Shown here: positions 18,304 to 62,308 of the stretch, piece by piece
Position numbering within the stretch: position 1 is the first letter of the stretch
Layout of the letters: the number at the start of each line of letters is the position of its first letter
Source of the DNA: Suillus spraguei
Taxonomy: Eukaryota; Basidiomycota; Agaricomycetes; Boletales; Suillaceae
Length of the DNA stretch: 64,000 bases
NCBI GenBank assembly: GCA_016800925.1
Contig: JABCPU010000371.1
Location: 1 to 64,000 of the forward strand
Direction of reading: 5' to 3'
Translations under genes and position numbers: made by a program
The notes under the pieces: generated by a model
The model's input: only the letters and a program-made list of their open reading frames with translations
The model's database searches: none
What the model was told of the DNA's origin: nothing

Positions 18304-18385
18304 TCGGATATGGTGTAATGGTTAACATTACCGCCTCTCATTGATGGGTTCGCGGTAGCCCGGGGTTCGATTCCCCGTATCCGAA
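18304..18385 (+). tRNA. tRNA-Glu (anticodon CTC) with 10-nt intron
   Basis: Acceptor arms TCGGATA and TATCCGA pair fully. The D stem GTGT/ACAT closes a loop with GG. The anticodon stem ACCGC/GCGGT closes a loop with anticodon CTC at 18337-18339. A 10-nt intron (18341-18350) follows position 37, the canonical place. The T arm CGGGG-TTCGATT-CCCCG is perfect and contains the B box. A T-rich run shortly downstream can end Pol III transcription. The discriminator base is A at 18385. Confidence 0.95.
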
Positions 18386-19798
18386 CGTTTTGTTCTCATC
18401 GTTTTTTTCAACCATGATACTCTTCATCATTTCTCAACCTTGTGAAAATTTGACACACAACTTACTACTTTTTTTATTGTAACATACGTTCTCGTAACTT
18501 TTGGGCGGCTTCTGATGAACGTTGTGATAACATTTAGTGGCCGACCTCCTAGGTTTTCAGCTGCGGAATCGTGCGGAATCTGGATGGCCTCTCAATCAGA
18601 GGGCACGAATACGTTTAGACTACCAGCAATGGCACTCGAGTTCACTCATATTATGCCTCCAAACTTTACTATTGTCTTCATGTTCTCTATCGTAGTAAAC
18701 CGTTTCGAATTTTCCGAGTCGTCTATGAGGCCGCCTGTCAAGGCTAGACCAGCCAAGTTCACATAGCATAAACTGACTCGGACGTCTGCTTTCTTTCGTT
18801 TCGGTATTGCCTCTTGTCACCTCCATCGTTGCTTTGAAGCCTATTTCCTTCGCGTGAATATGTCCTCCCGAGAATAAAAGGTCAGCTGTGTGGAAGGCAG
18901 TCCCGAGCAAGTTCGTCATTACTGGCTATATGATGCACAGCACTATAGCATGATCTAGTGAGGAAAGATGAAACCAGACCATCCCGATACGGACAATTTC
19001 AATAGCTATACGACGGAGTTTATCATCGATTCTGACCCAATTCTGGGTGCATCTTCTTCTTGAGTACCTTGCTTGGTATGTGTGGATCAAGGGATGAGGT
19101 AGTGTATGTCAAGCGCACCTCCCGTTCGTAAATATCGCATTCCCTTGCGCAAGTTGAAGACTAAACCGGAGGAGGTGCTTCGTTAAGGTCGCACAGCACG
19201 CTGCGGACGAGAATCTGAGGTGAATCTAGATCAGTGGCCAGATTGTAGGCCGCGAACACGCCACTGACTATGCACGGAAGTGTATTGAGTAGTATATCAG
19301 GGCGGCTTTCGTGGGTAATGGGATGGTGTTGCACACGGATGGGTCCGACAGGCACGGGCAGTCACCCAGCGGTGGGCGCGTGGGCGACACAAGGCTGTAC
19401 GCCCCCGAACTTTGAGCTAGAATGAAGTGAAGCCAGAATTATCGTCGTCTGCGCTACTCATGCTTTGTGATGTGACTAAGGGTCTGCTCTGAGCAGTCTT
19501 TGAGAATAGAATACAGTTATTGCTCTCGTCGTCGATGGGTGATTCAGTATAAGGTATCGGGTTTTCATGATGTGTCAAATGAGTGACAGTGTGGATAAGA
19601 TTAGATTACATCCCATGCACTCAGGTGCACCGTTCAAGTTGATCAGGCACCAAACACATTCAATAATACCCGTCATCTCATTCTCCTCACCGTCAACAAC
19701 AGCATTCAACCACAGTCCATCAACGTAACGCGTTCTCCAGAGACAACTGTATACCATACTACTCGCATACCTGTATGTAAATTTGTATTTTCCTTTAC
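18386..19798. other. intergenic region with only weak open frames
   Basis: Two minus-strand open frames (18620-18919, 99 codons; 19161-19355, 64 codons) have no recognisable motif. They could be exons of an unidentified minus-strand gene, but I cannot join them convincingly. The right end is the upstream region of the WD40 gene. Confidence 0.35.
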
Positions 19799-29196: not shown

Positions 29197-29267
29197 GCAT
29201 TAATGGGGTAGTGGTAACCTGGGTCGTTGCCATCGACCCGCCGGGGGTTCGATTCCCCCTTAATGCA
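29197..29267 (+). tRNA. tRNA-Gly (anticodon GCC)
   Basis: Acceptor arms GCATTAA and TTAATGC pair fully, with discriminator A at 29267. The anticodon stem GGTCG/CGACC closes the loop TTGCCAT, which holds anticodon GCC. The T arm GGGGG-TTCGATT-CCCCC is perfect. There is no intron. A T-rich stretch begins about 10 bases downstream and can end Pol III transcription. Confidence 0.95.
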
Positions 29268-29552
29268 CTGGCGGTTTGCTTTTGTTTTTATTTTATTTTG
29301 TGAGAGCGTAACAATTCCCTGCGTTCTAGCTTGCTTGGAGGATTGGTTACTTCGGATTCATGGGATGGGTGATGTCAGCATCTCACAATCATCGTTGGAT
29401 TCCAGAGAAGTTCGCCTGATTACATAAGTGATATCTCGGGTATGGTTCGGTCCAGCGAACCGACGACCAACCGACGCTAGTCCTACACTAGCTCCTCCTT
29501 TTTCTCCTCTGAGTCGGTCTGCGGCTCACTCCCCGCCTGAAAATTACTTTCC

Positions 29553-46322: not shown

Positions 46323-46499
46323 TGTTGAGTTGCACGCAAGTCTCCGACACGTTCTGCAAAGTAGTAATACCAACTCAGGTTTTACAGTGAACCACGCTAA
46401 AACCATGCTGCCGACGGTAATATTGCGCCATCATTCCCGAAGATTCCCGATAAGTGTCGAGCTCGTACCTCGACCTCTGATATCCAACATCTGTCTCGT
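46323..46499 (-). repeat. solo LTR, family A, with 5-bp target-site duplication
   Basis: The unit begins TGTTGAG and ends ATATCCAACA, so it has TG/CA ends on either strand. It is flanked by the exact duplication TCTGT (46318-46322 and 46500-46504). Its sequence matches the LTR at 52090-52314 and the split LTR ending at 62214. At 177 bp it lacks an internal part of about 48 bp that contains the TATA-like TATATAAG in those copies. Strand is set by that TATA-like box in the longer copies. Confidence 0.9.
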
Positions 46500-52089: not shown

Positions 52090-52314
52090 TGTTGAGTTAT
52101 CCGCAAGTCTCAGACACATTGTCGAAGTACAATCTGACTTGATTGTACAGGGAACCCGCTGACAAACACACAGTGTACTCGTACAGAAAAATACCTACTT
52201 ATATATGCCAGCCAACACTAAAACCATGCTGCCAACGCCTGGTAATATTGTGCCATCAATCCTGAAGATTCCTGATAAGTGTCGAGCTTGTACCTCGACC
52301 CCTGATATCCAACA
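52090..52314 (-). repeat. intact LTR of the outer element, family A
   Basis: 225 bp, ends TGTTG...CAACA. It contains a TATATAAG box on the minus strand (near 52200). It matches the solo LTR at 46323-46499 and the split copy that ends at 62214. Confidence 0.88.
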
Positions 52315-52800
52315 CACCCCCTTGAGTGAAGACACTCTCGGGAAAAATTTCACCCCCTGCAACCAAGACCAAAATCCTCCTGTGCCCTGCTTTTCCAGCC
52401 TGTGCTGAATGTCTTCATCATCCAATTCTTCCTCAGCATGACTGATCCAGGGCGCTAGACTCCACCCACATCATCCCCACTGATCCTGCCCTTGACATGA
52501 CTAACCCAGGCACCTGATGCCCCCGCTGTCCCTGCCAATAATTTCTGCCTTTCTGCTGCAAAAAAACCTTCACATTTTCTGCCTCAATCGCCTTGTCCGC
52601 CCTCCAATGTTCATCAACCGTTGCAAATACCATGTCTGAGCAAGAGATCTTGCTTGAGTGATAGTGCCAGGGCATGCGAGATAGCAAATAGAATTTGGGG
52701 TAAAAGAGTGATGAGAATAAGGCCACCTTGTCCAAGACTTCTGCCTTCTGCTGGTGATGTTGTCACCAATAGCTCCTCATGGGGCTGCAAGAGCTCTGCC

Positions 52801-53273
52801 TGTTACAATCGTACGTGCCCCTATTCATTTTCCATCTCATTTACTTGTATATTACGTAACATGACTCTGACTTGTATGCTCAACGCATCTGTACTATAGT
52901 TGCCTTCCTTCTTTGGATACGCACTTACGTTCCCACGTCTCACTTGGTCTGTGTGCACATATTGGCTTATTTAAGCACAGTGTATTTGTAGTAGATTCTT
53001 TACTTTAATCTTACTGGGTTTTACCTGGAATCTCCTTCGCTTAGGCCTCCAACCTAAGTCGTCTTGAATCGTCTCTAAGTCTAAGCACTCCTTAGTCTTA
53101 GTCTCTATTCTTGTGGATACCTCTTTGACTTGTCATTGAGGCTAAAACCTTGATCGTACTCAGAACGCGTTCCTAGTACTTTCACCTTGTCCTCTTGTGG
53201 ACATTGTAAGAATTCCCAGCAGACCGTCTGTGTCTTCTCACTGTCGCTGGTGACGCCACCCCAGTTCGTAACA
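52801..53273 (+). repeat. left LTR of the Gypsy element
   Basis: 473 bp. A TATA-like TATTTAAG at 52968-52975 precedes ACTTTAATCTT (53002-53012) by about 34 bases, a spacing fitting a transcription start there. That 11-mer is complementary to the bases just behind this LTR. Confidence 0.95.
52968..52975 (+). promoter_or_regulatory. TATA-like box of the Gypsy LTR promoter
   Basis: The sequence TATTTAAG lies 34 bases before the proposed transcript start at 53002. The same box occurs in the right LTR. Confidence 0.6.
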
Positions 53274-53274
53274 A

Positions 53275-53285
53275 AAGATTAAAGT
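53275..53285 (+). promoter_or_regulatory. putative self-priming primer-binding site
   Basis: AAGATTAAAGT begins two bases after the left LTR. It is the exact reverse complement of ACTTTAATCTT at 53002-53012 in the LTR. In Tf1 of fission yeast the first 11 bases of the transcript anneal to such a site and prime minus-strand synthesis instead of a tRNA. I see no tRNA-type site (TGG start) here. Confidence 0.75.
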
Positions 53286-53473
53286 CCATTTTGATCGTCG
53301 ACTATTCAGTCTTCGACCCTGAACCCTGATCGCTTAGATCAGCAGACTAGCGTACGCGTACGCTGAGCAGATTGTCAAGAGGAAGCCCCCTGACAGAAGA
53401 AAAGCCCTGACGGACAGCAAGACAGCGCGTGTAGGCATCGAGAAAGTATAACTCACCAGAAGAATCATCAACC

Positions 53474-54310
53474 ATGTCGACCAAAGAATTCGAATACAAG
53501 ATCGGTCAACCGATTGGTTTTGATGGAGATCGTGATAACTCTCGCAAGTTCATCCAGTCATGCAATTTGCACTTTGACATCAATGAAAAGCTTTACACCA
53601 CCGACAAGCAGAAGATCATCTACATAACATCCTTTATGACCGAAAGGAATGCCAAGTCTTGGAAAGAACAATTCCTTGAACACGCCCAATCTACTGATAC
53701 TTCGGGACAAAAAGTTGGTTATGGGACGATGGCAGATTTTATGAAGAGCTTCAAAGAAGCATTTGAACCAGTGGATACCAAGGGAACCGCACTTACAAGA
53801 CTCAGAGATCTCAAACAAGGAACTGGAGATCTCCACACCTATGTCGCTGACTTTGAGGCACTTGCAGCCAAGGCTCAGATCACTGACAACGCGACGAAGA
53901 TCCAGTTCTTCCAAGACGGCCTTAATTGGGGTATCCTTACAAAGCTTTTCAATACAGGAGACGTCTCCGAAATATTCAGAGAAGTTGTGTTGCAATGCGT
54001 TGCTATTGACAACGCTCATCATCGGCTCAACGCCATGAGGACACGTCATACTCCACAACAGAAGAAGAAGAACTATGGGAATGCACGGTATATTCCAAAC
54101 CGTGACTCCAATGCAATGGTCGTAGATCGAATCTCCGACATGGAAAGATCCGAATGCATGAAGAAAGGGCAATGCTTCGGATGCAAGAAGACAGGACACC
54201 GTATCCATAATTGTCCTGAAAGAAAGAAGAAGACCCCACTCCGACAAACCGAAGTCAAAGGGGAAGAAGGAGATGAAGAAACCGTGAGACGGATTGTTGA
54301 GGATTTTTGA
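53474..54310 (+). CDS. gag: Gag of the Gypsy element
   Basis: Structural protein of the retrotransposon particle, 278 residues. The N-terminal and central part is the Ty3/Gypsy capsid type (IGFDGDRDNSRKFIQS at the start, then RLRDLKQGTGDLHTYVADFE and a FQDGLNWGILTKLF segment). A basic stretch leads to one CCHC zinc knuckle, CFGCKKTGHRIHNC, at about residues 235-248. The frame is intact. The stop TGA (54308-54310) directly follows a run of five T, and pol begins in the -1 frame at this spot. Confidence 0.93.
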   Translation: MSTKEFEYKIGQPIGFDGDRDNSRKFIQSCNLHFDINEKLYTTDKQKIIYITSFMTERNAKSWKEQFLEHAQSTDTSGQKVGYGTMADFMKSFKEAFEPVDTKGTALTRLRDLKQGTGDLHTYVADFEALAAKAQITDNATKIQFFQDGLNWGILTKLFNTGDVSEIFREVVLQCVAIDNAHHRLNAMRTRHTPQQKKKNYGNARYIPNRDSNAMVVDRISDMERSECMKKGQCFGCKKTGHRIHNCPERKKKTPLRQTEVKGEEGDEETVRRIVEDF

Positions 54311-57300
54311 CTTGGAGAAACAAAGACTCGACGTATGTTTCTCCCAATGTATTACTAAGACTTGTACGCGCTGTAGGTGAAAGAAAAGAACTTTGTGTCC
54401 CTATCACCCTCCACTCGCGTACTCGCTTGAAATCCGTCGACACCACCGCTGTTATTGATTCAGGAGCAGCAGGAACATTCATCTCAGAAGAGTTTGTGAA
54501 ACTCCATCAAATCACACGACGAAAACTCAAAGAACCATTTCGAGTTACTACGGCAGATGGAACTCTCATAAAAGGAGGACCAATTACGCACTACTGTCTT
54601 CTTGTGGTCAAGATTGACGATCGAACCATGTACGGAAAATTCAATATCACTAAGCTAGGAAGAAGAGATCAAATCCTCCTTGGAATCCCATGGTTGCGAG
54701 CGATGAACCCAATTATAGATTGGGCTGCTGAAACACTCATCCTCTCACGGACAGAGAAATCAGATGAAATTGAAATTGATATAGACGAAGATCGGAAGAA
54801 GAACGGACTGCCCCAACTCTTCAATCATCACACCAGATGGCAACATTCCCGCCTTCCGAAGCCCTTCATCGCCTCTCCTATTGATGCTCCTGAGAACCCA
54901 GAGCCAGAAGTACGAATGCCATGTACTGCAGACCCTACCCCTTGTGTACAATTGCCACGAGCAGTATCACCAATTCCCCGCGCAGAGAAGCGCAAGAACG
55001 AATCCGAACCTGAGCATCGGATCGGACAAGAACCTATTGAGCAGCGGCCAATAGAAGAACAGAAACATGGAAAGAGGAAAACGGAAGAAGAACTCCCAGG
55101 GCGAAGCACCAACGTACCAAAATTATCCAAGTTCTTCGTTCCCCCAAAAACCCTTTCAGCTTCAATAGAAGAAACCCCCGATAAAGAAGAACCCGTACCC
55201 TCGTTGATCCCAACCGAGGATGATGACCAATTCGATACCATGAATGACGTCTGGCATACGCCAGAAGTACGCGAAATTTCCTCGTATGAACTAGGAGATG
55301 GAGAATTTCTCGTGGAATACGACACTGATGGAGTCAGCATGAGAATCATAGAAGAAGTTTCCATGGACACGCCTCTCACACCTGATGGAACTTCCCGATT
55401 CGAACAAACTTCCAACTATTCCACAGTCTTCCTTCCACCACCAAAATACAGCAACAAGGCTCAGGAATTCGCTACGGATGAGAAGGAAAAGAAAAAGAAA
55501 TCCTTTGAAGAATTGGTCCTGGATTATTTGCACGACTTCGCAGACGTCTTTGCTAAAGACGGATTAAACAAACTACCCCCCGAATGCCCTGGTATCGATC
55601 ATCGGATCGACACCAAACCCGGTTTTATCCCTTGCATGTCTAAGGTTTACCCACTATCGGAAAAAGAACGCGCTGCTGTCAAAACGTTTATCGATGAAAA
55701 CGTTGCGAAAGGCTTTATCTCGGAATCGAAGTCACCTCAAGCTAGTGGCTTCTTCTTTGTGAGAAAGAAGAGCGGAGAACTGCGTCCCTGTCAAGATTAT
55801 TGCTACATCAATGATTGGACAGTCAAGAACGCATACCCGCTTCCACTCCCTATTTCCCTTGTCGCACGTCTTCATAATGCACAGTTCTTTACGAAAATGG
55901 ATATCCGGTCCGGTTATAACAACATTCGCATCCATCCTAACGACAGGTGGAAAGCTGCTTTTACCACAGAATTTGGCCTCTTTGAACTGAACGTCATGTT
56001 CTTTGGCCTCTGTAATTCCCCAGCAACTTTTCAAGCATACATGAATCGCACCTTTCAACAAGAAATCAATGAAGGATGGATGGTTATCTATATGGACAAT
56101 ATCCTGATTTTCTCTACAACAATGGCAGAACACCATGAACGGACTAGACAAGTTTTGATGAAAATACGAAAAGAACACCTGTTCTTGAAACCGGAGAAAT
56201 GCACCTTCGATGCAGAAGAAGTGGAATACCTCGGAATGATAATTCGCCCCGGACAAGTTGCCATGGACACCGCCAAGACCAAGGGAATCTCCGAATGGCC
56301 AATCCCGAAATCTGTAAAAGATGTTCGGTCATTCCTTGGTTTTTTGCAACTTCTACCGCATGTTCATTTCCCACTATTCTGACATCGCCAGACCCCTTAT
56401 CAATTTGACAAAGAAAGATAAGGCCTTTGAGTGGTCAACCGAATGTATGGACACCTTCGAAGAATTGAAACGGCGCTTCACTTCCCAACCGGTACTCCGT
56501 AACCCTGATCCTTCCCGACAATTTGCCATTGCTACCAACGCTTTGCTTGTAGCTACTGGCGGAGTTCTCCTACAGACTGATGAGAATGGTGTTTATCACC
56601 CATGTGCATACCTCTCACAGTCTTTGAACCCCGCAGAACGCAACTACCAGATCTTTGATCGGGAACTCCTTGCCGTGATCCGGGCATTGAACGAATGGCG
56701 TCATTATCTCGAAGGACACCCACACCCCGTCCTGGTATTCACAGACCATAAGAACCTTCTGTACTTTAGAAGTGCACAGAAGCTCACCCGTCGCCAAGCA
56801 CGTTGGCAATTGATTTTGTCTATTTACGACATTGAACTGCATCACGTTGCAGGTACTAAATTAGCAGTACCTGATGCACTATCCCGCCGGCCTGTTTATG
56901 ACTCTGGCAAAGACAATAATGAGGACCAGACCCTCCTCCCTGACGCTCTATTCGTTCGTCTTATTGATACCGACTTGAAGGATGTGCTGTCATCCTCTGA
57001 CCCCCTCGACGACCCTGTCTTCAAGACGGCATCTGATGCCCTTGATGGCGTGTGCCTGCCCCCTATGAAGTCGGCACTTTCTGATTGGAAGGTTGAGGAG
57101 AACATCCTCTATTTTAAAAACCGCGCCTATATTCCACCGGCGCATCGCTCCGATATCCTGAAAAGGTATCATGATCATCCTACCGCGGGTCACCCCGGTA
57201 GATTCAAAACTGAAGAACTCGTAAAACGGGAAGCCTGGTGGCCTGCAATGGGCTCTTATATTCGGAAATACATTGAGGGTTGCGCCCTTTGCCAGCAAAT

Positions 57301-58411
57301 GAAAGCGGATACTCATCCTGTCCGGCCCCCGCTCACGCCTATTCCCTCGTCGGCTGTTCGCCCGTTCTCCAGGTCTCCGTTGATCTCATCACTGACCTCC
57401 CCGTCTCTGGAGGCTTTGACAGTATCATGGTCGTGGTAGACCATGGCCTTACGAAGGGGGTAATTATTATCCCTTGTTTGAAAACCATCACTTCAGAAGG
57501 TGTGGCTAAACTATTTTTAAAACATGTTTACTGACGATTTGGACTTCATGACAAAGTCATCTCGGATCGAGGACCGCAATTCCTATCTCGCTTCTCAAAG
57601 AACTTGCCCGACTTCTCGACTACGTCATCGCTCCATCTACGGCTTACCACCCACAGACTGATGGCCAAACTGAAAGGCTAAATCAAGAACTTGAAACATA
57701 CCTCCGCATCTACTGCCGAAACCACCCGAAGATTGGGTAGAACACCTACCAATCGCTGAATTCGTCCACAACCACCGAAAACACGATGCAAGGAATGCAT
57801 CACCTTTTTATCTGATGATGGGATATGAACCACGCGCTATCCCTCATCTTATCCCTGATTCATCAGTCCCCGCAGCAGAAGACCGAGTACGATCTCTGCA
57901 GAAGATAAGAGAGGAAGCAATCGCCTGTCATAACATTGCAATGCAGACAATGGCCGAACGATCTCGAGGAGATAAGTACATCCCATGGAAGATTGGAGAT
58001 AAGGTTTGGCTATCTGCCGCCAATCTTAGACTCAAACTCTCATCAAGGAAACTCGCCCCAAAGCAATATGGACCTTTCCCGATCATCGATGTCTTATCTC
58101 CCATCACGTTCACGCTCAAACTCCCTCCGCAGTGGAAAATCCACCCCACGTTTCATGCTTCTGTCTTATCATCCTATAGCGAAACAGACATACATGGCCC
58201 GAACTTCCCCGAACCACCACCTGACATCATCGAAGAAGAAGAAGAATATGAAGTAGAAGCAATCCTTTCTCACAAAGGAACCGGCATTCACCGACATTAT
58301 CTCGTTTCTTGGAAAGGATATTCATCAGGAGATAACGAATGGCTCCCAGAAAAGAACTTGAAAAACTCCGCTCAACTCTTGAATGCTTATAAGAAGCAAC
58401 ACACCCTCTGA
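54307..58411 (+). pseudogene. pol: Pol of the Gypsy element, broken in several places
   Basis: Pol starts by a likely -1 shift at the gag stop. An aspartic protease core follows (VIDSGAAGTFIS). A long acidic/Pro-rich linker precedes the reverse transcriptase, which reads up to KMDIRSGYNNIRI and the catalytic block YMDNILIF (standard YxDD has become YMDN). RNase H carries TDHKNLLY, and the integrase has an H2C2 zinc-binding region (HPTAGHPG, CALCQQ) and a DDE-type core. The C-terminus is a chromodomain with HRHYLVSWKGYSSGDNEWLP. Breaks: an extra base in a T run at 56340-56345, one-base losses near 57370, 57595 and 57727, and a TGA at 57532-57534. The changed last Asp of the YxDD box alone would abolish polymerase activity. 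Confidence 0.92.
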
Positions 58412-58466
58412 TTATTCTTCAGTCAAATCAACTCGCGTCAAGCACCTGATTAACTACTATCTCGAA

Positions 58467-59702
58467 ATGTCTTTTCCCACTGCTTACATCACACCCGTCG
58501 TCATTGCCACCAATGACTCTGACTCTGAAATTGAACAATACGGAACTCTCACCGCAGAAATCGACAATACCTCTTACATCGAAGCCGCCATCCTCTGTGA
58601 GGGACATGCCCTCGAAATCGAAAGAATCCTCACTGAAAGAGGTGCCTTCCCCGCTCTACTCCTTGTTAACATCATCTGCACCGCAGCCCTCATCGAAGCC
58701 ACCGCTAAAGAAACTACAGAAATCACACTCCGTCACCATTTCATTCATCTTCAAAAACGCATTCATGCTTACGCTATGCTGTTACTTCCCGATTCTTTTA
58801 AGAATGATGTTGAAGAAGCTATTCACATCATTGCCGAACGTCGAGCAGGTGTTGCTCGACCTCCCTCTCCGCAAGGAGATACGCCACTTCCTATCCCAGC
58901 ACCCGCCTCTTCGTGCATTTATTCTAGTCTTGATGCCTTTGCTGGCCTATACACTGCTGTGCAAGAAATTGGACAACTTACCGGCACGGTTGTTGACACC
59001 ATCCAGCGATCGGTCGCTGAAACTAGAGCAGCCAGAAACCTAGTAGAAGAAGCTATCACTGATTTACAACAAACGCAAGCTGATCTTGCATCTCCCCGAA
59101 CTCCATCTCCCATTGAACGGCCAATCTCGCCACCGCCAGCAACAACCTCTCTTGATTGCCCTGATTGGTTGTACGAACCTTGCACAATAGAACAGTGTGA
59201 GGCCGCTAAACTACTAGGTATTCTGGCCACTGAGTTGGTAACACTCGGTCCCCGACTTCGCGACCTCCATATACACCCCCCCAATGTCTATCCCATCATC
59301 ATTCAGTCCAATGGATTCTGTCTCGCTGATCTTAGTAAAAGATTTTGGCATAACCTCTTCATCTCCTCTGGTGAACTTCTTGCGGCTGCTGAGCGAGCAG
59401 TTACCCCAGATCTTCCCACGTCGGCATACACATTGTCCCCGCTCAACAGGCGCAACTTTAAACGAGCTAACACACTTGCCTTAAAACGTATGAAGAGGAA
59501 CAAGGGAAAGAAGCGCGCCAGATCCACTAGCCCCACGCCCATCATTTCCCCGTCACCCTTACGCAAAGTCCATTCCAATCCAGATGAGAATATGAAGTGC
59601 CGTGTCTGTGGGTTGCTAGGACATCGTCAAAGAATTGTGCGGAATATCAGTGCAAGGTTTGCAGATATTGGTCGCCGACTCATTTGTCCCTTACTGCCCT
59701 AA
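58467..59702 (+). CDS. third ORF of the Gypsy element, function unknown
   Basis: An open frame of about 410 residues lies between pol and the polypurine tract. An upstream continuation overlaps the pol end (from 58383), but the ATG at 58467 has A at -3 and begins MSFPTAYITPVVIA. The N-terminal half is helical and Ala/Glu-rich (ALEIERILTERGAFPALLLV, IHLQKRIHAYAMLLLP). The middle is Ser/Pro-rich, with a further helical stretch. The end is strongly basic (RMKRNKGKKRARS) and has the beginning of a zinc-knuckle-like pattern (CRVCGLLGHR). A one-base loss near 59630 seems to break a second half of that pattern, since Cys-containing residues continue in the next frame. I do not recognise the family. 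A nucleic-acid-binding or accessory Gag-like role is only a guess. Confidence 0.7.
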   Translation: MSFPTAYITPVVIATNDSDSEIEQYGTLTAEIDNTSYIEAAILCEGHALEIERILTERGAFPALLLVNIICTAALIEATAKETTEITLRHHFIHLQKRIHAYAMLLLPDSFKNDVEEAIHIIAERRAGVARPPSPQGDTPLPIPAPASSCIYSSLDAFAGLYTAVQEIGQLTGTVVDTIQRSVAETRAARNLVEEAITDLQQTQADLASPRTPSPIERPISPPPATTSLDCPDWLYEPCTIEQCEAAKLLGILATELVTLGPRLRDLHIHPPNVYPIIIQSNGFCLADLSKRFWHNLFISSGELLAAAERAVTPDLPTSAYTLSPLNRRNFKRANTLALKRMKRNKGKKRARSTSPTPIISPSPLRKVHSNPDENMKCRVCGLLGHRQRIVRNISARFADIGRRLICPLLP

Positions 59703-59949
59703 ACGAGTTGGGCCTCCTCCTTTCAAGTTAACTTGGAAAGATGAGGATTCTATGATGCACTTCACGCTTGGAGCAGCAGCTTGACGATGAACGTATTCAA
59801 GCAGAAAAGAGAAGGGACTCTAAACGACGAGCTGGTCTGGAGGAAGCTAAGTACATGAGGGGTGGGTCCTTTGCTGACGAAGACTACGACTGGAGTGACG
59901 ATCCCGTTTACTACGCAAACCAAAGTGATTGAAAGTCGGTGACTTTCAG

Positions 59950-59965
59950 TGTAAAACGGGGGTAA
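59950..59965 (+). promoter_or_regulatory. polypurine tract of the Gypsy element
   Basis: The run AAAACGGGGG directly precedes the right LTR (59966), the standard place where plus-strand synthesis starts. Confidence 0.8.
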
Positions 59966-60434
59966 TGTTACAATCGTACGTGCCCCTATTCATTTTCCAT
60001 CTCATTTACTTGTATATTACGTAACATGACTCTGACTTGTATGCTCAACGCATCTGTACTATAGTTGCCTTCCTTCTTTGGATACGCACTTACGTTCCCA
60101 TGTCTCACTTGGTCTGTGCGCACATATTGGCTTATTTAAGCACAGTGTATTTGTAGTAGATTCTTTACTTTAATCTTACTGGGTTTTACCTGGAATCTCC
60201 TTCGCTTAGGCTCCAACCTAAGTCGTCTTGAATCGTCTCTAAGTCTAAGCACTCCTTAGTCTTAGTCTCTATTCTTGTGGATACCTCTTTGACTTGTCAT
60301 TGAGGCTAAACCTTGATCGTACTCAGAACGCGTTCCTAGTACTTTCACCTTGTTCCTCTTGTGGACATTGTAAGAATTCCCAGCAGACCGTCTGTGTCTC
60401 ACTGTCGCTGGTGACGCCACCCCAGTTCGTAACA
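59966..60434 (+). repeat. right LTR of the Gypsy element
   Basis: 469 bp. Compared with the left LTR it differs by two substitutions (near 60101 and 60119) and four small indels (a C in the AGGCC run, an A in the GCTAAAA run, a T in CTTGTTCC and three bases in TCTTCTC), which accounts for the 4-bp length difference. Confidence 0.95.
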
Positions 60435-60511
60435 CTGCCAGGTTGTGAGATGCATTTGTGTTGAGTTATCTGCAAGTCTCAGACATGTTGTTGAAGTATG
60501 ATCTAACTTGA

Positions 60512-61308: not shown

Positions 61309-62054
61309 TGTTAAGACCATACTCAAAGGGTAAGAATCTGAAGGGCTTTGGCCTCAGTTCGTGCACTGTGCCCTTTTCTGAGTATTGCCCCTTATTTCGG
61401 AAGGAAGATATATGTTCAAAGGTCCAAAGGTGGTCGCATGAAGGATCCAGACATCTGAAGGTAATGGATATGTCATGTCCGAAGGATATCCAGAATGTAG
61501 GAATGGAACAAGGTATAAGGCTAGTGTTGGACAGAGTCCTAACTAGAAACTAATGGGAATAGACTACCCGAAGGTAGAGTTGGAGATATAGACTATAGGA
61601 ATTAATCCTAAGTCTCAGAGGATGACTAGAGTTGGAAGGAACTCAAGTCCGGAGGAACAGAATGAGCAGAATCTAAGATGATATTCAAACTAAGGTTCTA
61701 CAGAGGTTTACATGTAGGTTATATATTATAGGTAACGGGATGTTCAATCCCCCGGGTCCAAAGGTCATGTGCAAAGTATAATGGAAGTCTATCAGTATGT
61801 ACATTAGATCAGTGAGTGTGAGTTGGAAATGAAACATATGTAACAGATCAATAAGCAGGACAGAATGTAACGATAACCGAAATACTGGACACAGGAAAGA
61901 TACTGAAAGGAGATAGATGCTGAGTTAATAGTGGTGAGAGAAGTCAAGATGTAGGAAGGTTTGGATGGGTGGACCAGATCAGATCTGTGGACTGGACAGA
62001 AGCAGAATTGATCAGATCTGATCAGATCTGGGATCAGAAGTATGGTATATGACA
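61309..62054 (-). repeat. solo LTR, family B, internally deleted
   Basis: It begins TGTTAAGACC and ends ATATGACA and is flanked by the exact duplication ACCTG (61304-61308 and 62055-62059). It matches 62395-63625 in the opposite direction but is 485 bp shorter, mostly through missing middle sequence. It sits inside the split family A LTR. Confidence 0.88.
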
Positions 62055-62214
62055 ACCTGCTGACAAATGCATAGCGTACTTGTACAGAAAAATACCTACT
62101 TATATATGCCAGCCAATGCTAAAAGCCATGCTGCTGACATCTGGTAATATTGCACCATGAATCCCGAAGATTCCTGATAAGTGTCGAGCTCATACCTTGA
62201 CCCCTGATATCCAA

Positions 62215-62308
62215 CAGTATCCTCAGGCACAGAGACAGTGGCAGCAGCATCTTCACTACTAGTAGTAACAGGTTGACTTGGACAATGTGATTGGATGTGC
62301 TCCCACAT
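62215..62308 (-). pseudogene. upstream part of an interrupted reading frame
   Basis: A minus-strand open frame starts at 62308 (MWEHIQSHCPSQP) and is continuous to the element boundary, ending with an acidic PED. Without the 10.1-kb element and one copy of GTATC it reads in the same frame into 52089-51838. The protein is not recognised. Confidence 0.5.

Follow-up and report, generated by a model that had tools for sequence, protein, structure and literature searches.

The LTR retrotransposon at positions 52801–60434 of the window, that is, of the whole 64,000-nucleotide stretch of Suillus spraguei DNA analyzed here, represents a family (family 1) that, judging from its sequence, very probably primes its own reverse transcription in the manner of Tf1, using the first 11 bases of its RNA. 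Tf1-type self-priming is strongly supported for three Gypsy families of this genome because the two others carry 11-base complements that consist of different letters, yet are equally exact and are arranged in the same geometry. The basis of this conclusion in the present analysis is the sequence match itself, its conservation, the compensated matches in the two other families, and the predicted fold of the leader RNA.

The element in the window and its 11-base complement

The domain content identifies the element as an LTR retrotransposon of the chromodomain Ty3/gypsy type, as the earlier note had proposed: the Pfam domains RVT_1, RT_RNaseH, Integrase_H2C2, SH3_Tf2-1 and Chromo were all found, and the reverse transcriptase (RT), RNase H and integrase follow one another in the order typical of Ty3/gypsy (RVT_1, RT_RNaseH, Integrase_H2C2). 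The chromodomain lies at the C-terminus of the integrase, together with SH3_Tf2-1, and is recognized in the window copy with an E-value of 5.3e-12; in family 3, the corresponding value is 2.6e-16, and in family 2, it is 4.5e-5 at 23.7 bits, below the cut-off of 25.1. The integrase core (rve) was detected in families 2 and 3 and is absent from the five scanned ORFs of the window copy, which leave positions 57440–57814 uncovered. The attribution to a basidiomycete agrees with the fungal names that occur in the list of 120 protein relatives (e.g., Sparassis, Antrodiella, Trametes, Lentinula and Moniliophthora); one of the 120 bears a bacterial MAG label, and P0103, also on this list, carries the name “putative retrotransposable element tf2 155 kda protein type 1-like”. 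The features of the window copy are as follows.

52796–52800, + strand: 5-bp target-site duplication CTGCC, with the second copy at 60435–60439
52801–53273, + strand: left LTR, 473 bp, TGTTAC...GTAACA
52968–52974, + strand: TATA-like box TATTTAA, beginning 34 bases upstream of 53002
53002–53012, + strand: predicted self-primer, the predicted 5'-terminal 11 bases of the RNA, where R would begin, exact complement of 53275–53285
53013–53018, + strand: ACTGGG, 5' arm of the second predicted helix, directly after the primer, predicted to pair with 53260–53265
53260–53265, + strand: CCCAGT, 3' arm of the second helix in the predicted fold, near the LTR end
53274, + strand: one-base spacer between the LTR and the predicted primer-binding site
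53275–53285, + strand: predicted primer-binding site for the self-primer, complement of 53002–53012
53474–54310, + strand: gag ORF, 278 aa (Pfam Retrotrans_gag and Ty3_capsid)
54628–56382, + strand: piece of the pol ORF with the reverse transcriptase (Pfam RVT_1), the catalytic motif of which is altered in the window copy
56321–57439, + strand: piece of the pol ORF with RNase H and the integrase zinc-binding domain (Pfam RT_RNaseH, RT_RNaseH_2 and Integrase_H2C2)
57815–58411, + strand: integrase C-terminus with the Tf2-1-like SH3 domain and the chromodomain (Pfam SH3_Tf2-1 and Chromo)
59953–59962, + strand: probable polypurine tract AAAACGGGGG, assigned by its position 3 bases upstream of the right LTR
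59966–60434, + strand: right LTR, 469 bp

The two LTRs are 98.3% identical. The window copy looks defective because its RT has an altered catalytic motif and the frames of pol are broken; for these reasons, we dropped it as a candidate active element, and the self-priming claim concerns the families rather than this copy.

The LTR 11-mer at 53002–53012 is ACTTTAATCTT, the 11-mer behind the LTR at 53275–53285 is AAGATTAAAGT, and the letters confirm that they are exact reverse complements of one another; the match comprises exactly 11 bases and can be extended on neither side. The position of the LTR 11-mer about 34 bases after a TATA-like box, claimed previously, is likewise correct, TATTTAA beginning at 52968 and the 11-mer at 53002, whereas the second 11-mer lies closer to the left LTR than the two nucleotides given in the earlier note, given that the LTR ends at 53273 and the spacer is the single base 53274. 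We assessed the match with dinucleotide-preserving shuffles of the LTR, in which a complement of at least 11 bases was accepted anywhere in the LTR and the distance from the TATA box was left out of the odds. Such a complement arose in 6 of 5000 shuffles when its site was allowed to start 0–4 bases from the LTR end and in 2 of 5000 when the range was 0–5 bases; among 142 control windows inside the element, the longest complement measured 8 bases. Because the shuffles rarely and the internal controls never reach 11 bases, the match in family 1 is unlikely to be a chance occurrence, even before its position is taken into account.

In Tf1, as described in passages of PMC7175516, the first 11 bases of the RNA are complementary to a site behind the LTR, and the RNA is cut after base 11. 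On this model, from which we infer the RNA start, the cut and the use of the primer, transcription of the element would start at 53002, approximately 34 bases downstream of the TATA box. The RNA would fold back on itself, and its 5'-terminal 11 bases would form a duplex with the site that follows the left LTR at a distance of one base. This fold would be helped by a second short helix, in which the end of U5 would pair with the bases immediately following the primer. The RNase H of the element would then sever the RNA after base 11, and the released 11-mer would be extended as the minus-strand primer.

Conservation and predicted folding of the leader in family 1

Copies of family 1 were collected as 20 stretches from a search with an RT motif (806 hits), supplemented with the hits of an LTR search. 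Two stretches that represent the window locus itself (L001 and L003) were excluded before alignment; of the 48 alignments made, 7 were dropped (six that were incomplete and L006, which represents the L020 copy), and removal of two duplicates from the remaining 41 left 39 distinct LTR copies. The 806 hits, as well as the 164 and 81 hits for families 2 and 3 discussed below, are hits of the RT motifs and not verified copies. Among the 20 stretches, an incomplete one (L028) lacks the 11-mer, and six (L014, L015, L018, L019, L024 and L028) have no site behind an LTR. L019, at one point considered a further family, is a diverged member of family 1. In two other stretches, the LTR pairs are identical (L010, 1395–8961, and L026, 1344–8671, with alignments of 464 and 476 bp, respectively, at 100%), which suggests recent movement of family 1.

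The LTR 11-mer is unchanged in all 39 copies, and the site at 53275–53285 in all 19 left LTRs; six of the seven dropped alignments also cover the 11-mer, which is intact in each of these. The rest of the LTR is more variable, with a mean of 6.5% per site over the 39 copies: averaged over the 463 11-base windows of the LTR, 57% of copies are unchanged, and fully invariant windows begin only at 53002–53005. Immediately upstream, the window at 52991 is unchanged in only 9 of 39 copies, and downstream of the site, the window at 53286 in 4 of 19. Genome-wide, the 11-mer is kept at 1566 of 1608 LTR sites with intact flanks (42 changed), and the partner site behind the LTR at 139 of 141 (2 changed). 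The sequences thus show a conserved stretch that begins abruptly where the RNA is predicted to start.

Conservation alone cannot single out the primer because the conserved block continues beyond it, to about 53030, and further LTR stretches, e.g., 53072–53095, are conserved nearly as strongly. The leader hence must be subject to other constraints as well, in keeping with an alternative under which the 11-mers pair for a function in packaging, translation or promoter activity, and something else primes reverse transcription. We consider this very improbable: in all three families, the site occupies the usual place of a primer-binding site, 1–2 bases from the LTR end, where no TGG-type site is present, and the pairing ends at exactly 11 bases. 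Self-priming remains the preferred explanation of the paired 11-mers.

When leader RNAs were folded from the predicted transcription start, the mean predicted probability of pairing between primer and site was 0.97 in families 1 and 2 and 0.92 in family 3. Across 19 copies of family 1, it ranged from 0.84 to 0.97, which is uninformative with respect to conservation because only copies with both 11-mers intact entered this calculation. The leader of family 1 as a whole folds better than expected (z-score of -4.31, with 0 of 200 shuffles as good), and the whole leader of family 3 no better than shuffles (z of -1.20, with 25 of 200 as good). The predicted fold depends on the assumed start since additional 5' sequence lowers the pairing probability of the primer, to 0.52 with 30 extra bases and 0.87 with 60.

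A helix beside the primer duplex, described for Tf1 in passages of PMC10085805, is likewise predicted in family 1, where ACTGGG (53013–53018, unchanged in 38 of 39 copies) would pair with CCCAGT (53260–53265, unchanged in 37 of 39), with a predicted probability that varied between 0.18 and 0.97 over the family 1 copies scored (18 of 19). It is similar to one side duplex, out of two, in the Tf1 “pretzel” as outlined in the same passages. For the other side duplex, the predicted folds yielded weak candidates only, so that, of the three duplexes of the pretzel, the primer:site duplex and one adjoining helix are predicted here.

Two further families and tRNA priming as an unlikely alternative

Families 2 and 3 were selected by RT motif only (164 and 81 hits, respectively), without prior knowledge of their LTRs; some hits in both sets resemble family 1, including, by letters, 7 of the 81. 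The RT pieces of the three families are 40%, 50% and 47% identical in pairwise comparisons.

In family 2 (L037), an LTR of 769 bp, the bounds of which were set from recurring end sequences rather than from an LTR pair within L037, ends with GTCTTAACA and is followed by the spacer GT and the site ATATTCGAACT. The TATA box of this LTR, TATATAAA, is at LTR position 348, and the LTR partner of the site, AGTTCGAATAT, is found 34 bases later, at position 382. The same site recurs behind another LTR in L035. Five family 2 start sites were located via the TATA string, of which the one in L031 differs at a single base from the four others, which are identical to each other. Two LTR ends in L031 have no family 2 site behind them, and family 2 was initially taken as non-matching on their account; this assignment was overturned by the exact match in L037, which has a left LTR, and by the same site in L035, and we read the mismatching ends in L031 as LTRs that are not followed by a primer site. 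Both L029 and L031 contain family 2 LTRs with head-to-tail partial duplications or nested copies. In family 3 (L032 and L033), LTRs of 475 and 476 bp are followed by the spacer TT and the site AGGTTTGAACT, the LTR partner of which, AGTTCAAACCT, is at LTR position 350, 35 bases after TATATAG at position 315.

Thus, the complement spans exactly 11 bases in all three families, and in families 2 and 3, the site is separated from the LTR by two bases. Complements of at least 11 bases appeared in 11 of 5000 shuffles for family 2 and 9 of 5000 for family 3, and among 142 control windows inside family 3, the longest complement measured 10 bases and was seen once. Each site fits its own LTR only, the longest cross-family matches being 4–7 bases, and the three primers differ from one another, in pairwise comparisons, by 6, 4 and 3 mismatches. 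With the RT only 40–50% identical between families, the divergence is deep, and the geometry appears to have been preserved across it, with matching changes of letters in primer and site. The primers of families 2 and 3 both start with AGTTC, so that these two might not be fully independent. Covariation between the two 11-mers in related elements, put forward earlier as a check on self-priming, hence takes a split form: within family 1, where both 11-mers are invariant (39/39 and 19/19), there is conservation and not covariation, and across the families, different letters form complements within each LTR.

These comparisons also bear on the idea that a chance complementarity was simply retained through recent common descent of the copies. 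Copies of family 1 share both 11-mers and are therefore not independent of each other, which is what such retention would produce, but the remainder of the LTR has diverged at the rate given above, two other families show matches with different letters, and shuffles reach 11 bases in at most 11 of 5000 cases per family. We regard this explanation as extremely improbable in comparison with self-priming.

L034, the RT of which is 72% identical to that of family 1, has neither an LTR pair nor either 11-mer within 10 kb and is perhaps a further subfamily. When IMG/VR viral contigs were scanned for relatives, 49 stretches matched, none of which was confirmed.

Most Ty3/gypsy elements are primed by a tRNA, which speaks for an alternative under which the primer is a tRNA, or a fragment of one, and the 11-mer occurs in the LTR only incidentally. 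In families 2 and 3, the 11-mers (L037, 2378–2388, and L033, 1378–1388) indeed look like a tRNA T-arm, as would suit a tRNA fragment: compared with what we take to be the tRNA B-box consensus, the RNA-start 11-mers match at 8 of 11 positions in family 2 and 9 of 11 in family 3, a resemblance spotted after the fact. The 11-mer of family 1, in contrast, matches at 6 of 11 positions only. Furthermore, TGG, the usual mark of a tRNA-binding primer site according to passages of PMC5006619, is missing within 27 bases behind the LTR in the checked copies of all three families, and an exact self-match in one geometry is present in all three of the testable families. A tRNA that would match the site better than the self-primer was not found among the two tRNAs called by ARAGORN in the window, tRNA-SeC (18304–18386) and tRNA-Gly(GCC) (29197–29268), the longest match being 5 bases. 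The tRNA-SeC call is doubtful for a fungus and may represent an intron-bearing tRNA. Given the lack of TGG, the three self-matches and the short matches to the two tRNA calls, priming by a tRNA appears very unlikely. Overall, the self-priming interpretation advanced in the earlier note is supported by the conservation of the 11-mers, their covariation across families and the missing TGG.

Relation to known and proposed self-priming elements

The mechanism considered here is already known and has been proposed for a basidiomycete element before, namely, Tcn1 of Cryptococcus neoformans, an LTR element thought to self-prime like Tf1/sushi (passages of PMC7175516, citing Goodwin and Poulter 2001); what is new are further members, and we claim no priority for mushroom-forming fungi. 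The finding is sound and ordinary in kind, and the three-family comparison is unusually clean. As far as these elements can be likened by the description in those passages, only Tcn1 among Tcn1–5 is proposed to be self-primed, whereas all three testable families fit here. In Tj1 of S. japonicus and in Tosmo1–3 and Tcry1 of other fission yeasts, passages of PMC4600332 and PMC10085805 describe a primer-binding site complementary to the predicted 5' end of the RNA; again likened by description, these elements reside in ascomycetes, unlike the families analyzed here. The majority of the Tcn1-clade chromoviruses of mosses and club-mosses are predicted to be self-primed, with a complement of at least 10 bases located 0–5 bases behind the LTR (passages of PMC6317226). 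This criterion is nearly the same as ours, although it was applied to plants and, in the same passages, yields prediction only. For one member of this clade, SM-Tcn1, passages of PMC2864245 report that no tRNA site could be identified, and no self-primer either.

One trait of the self-primed Tf1/sushi branch, a site complementary to the predicted 5' end of the RNA, is present in all three families over 11 bases, with the 5' end predicted from the TATA box and tRNA priming discounted through the missing TGG; the TGG-initial site near the LTR that characterizes tRNA-primed Ty3/gypsy elements was not found in the checked copies of these families. Membership of the element in this branch would fit its chromodomain, its Tf2-1-like SH3 domain and its putative priming site. 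Our results add comparative evidence that abundant chromodomain gypsy families of a basidiomycete probably use Tf1-type self-priming, with the 11-base length kept. Three natural primer/site pairs in one geometry make it possible to compare primer length, spacer and specificity without engineering, and searches for primer sites that rely on TGG would miss these families.

A more tentative possibility, to which we assign a rather low likelihood, is that the families hold private priming codes that drift in exact step and so cannot prime one another's RNA, the ruler of 34–35 bases and the 11-base primer being fixed and the letters free. The site would be rebuilt in each cycle by copying the 11-base self-primer, and changes at the 5' end of the RNA would therefore pass to the site in the next generation.

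Tf1 of Schizosaccharomyces pombe, as well as Tf2, is likewise a chromodomain gypsy element and shares with family 1 the 11-base length, and the Tf2-1-like SH3 domain of these elements is also detected in the window element by Pfam. This comparison with Tf1 relies on its published description, and self-priming is here predicted from sequence. In contrast to Tf1, the host is a basidiomycete, gag and pol are separate ORFs in the window copy, and an extra ORF follows pol. This ORF (58383–59702, 439 aa), which separates the right LTR from the chromodomain-encoding end of pol, has no Pfam match; a zinc-knuckle pattern, CxxCxxxxHxxxxC, is present in the corresponding region of three of the four other copies inspected (L010, L013 and L020, but not L026). 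Copies of another repeat, 76–89% alike, flank the element on both sides (52153–52314, 62054–62216 and 46395–46489), so that the element may be bracketed by members of a second repeat family.
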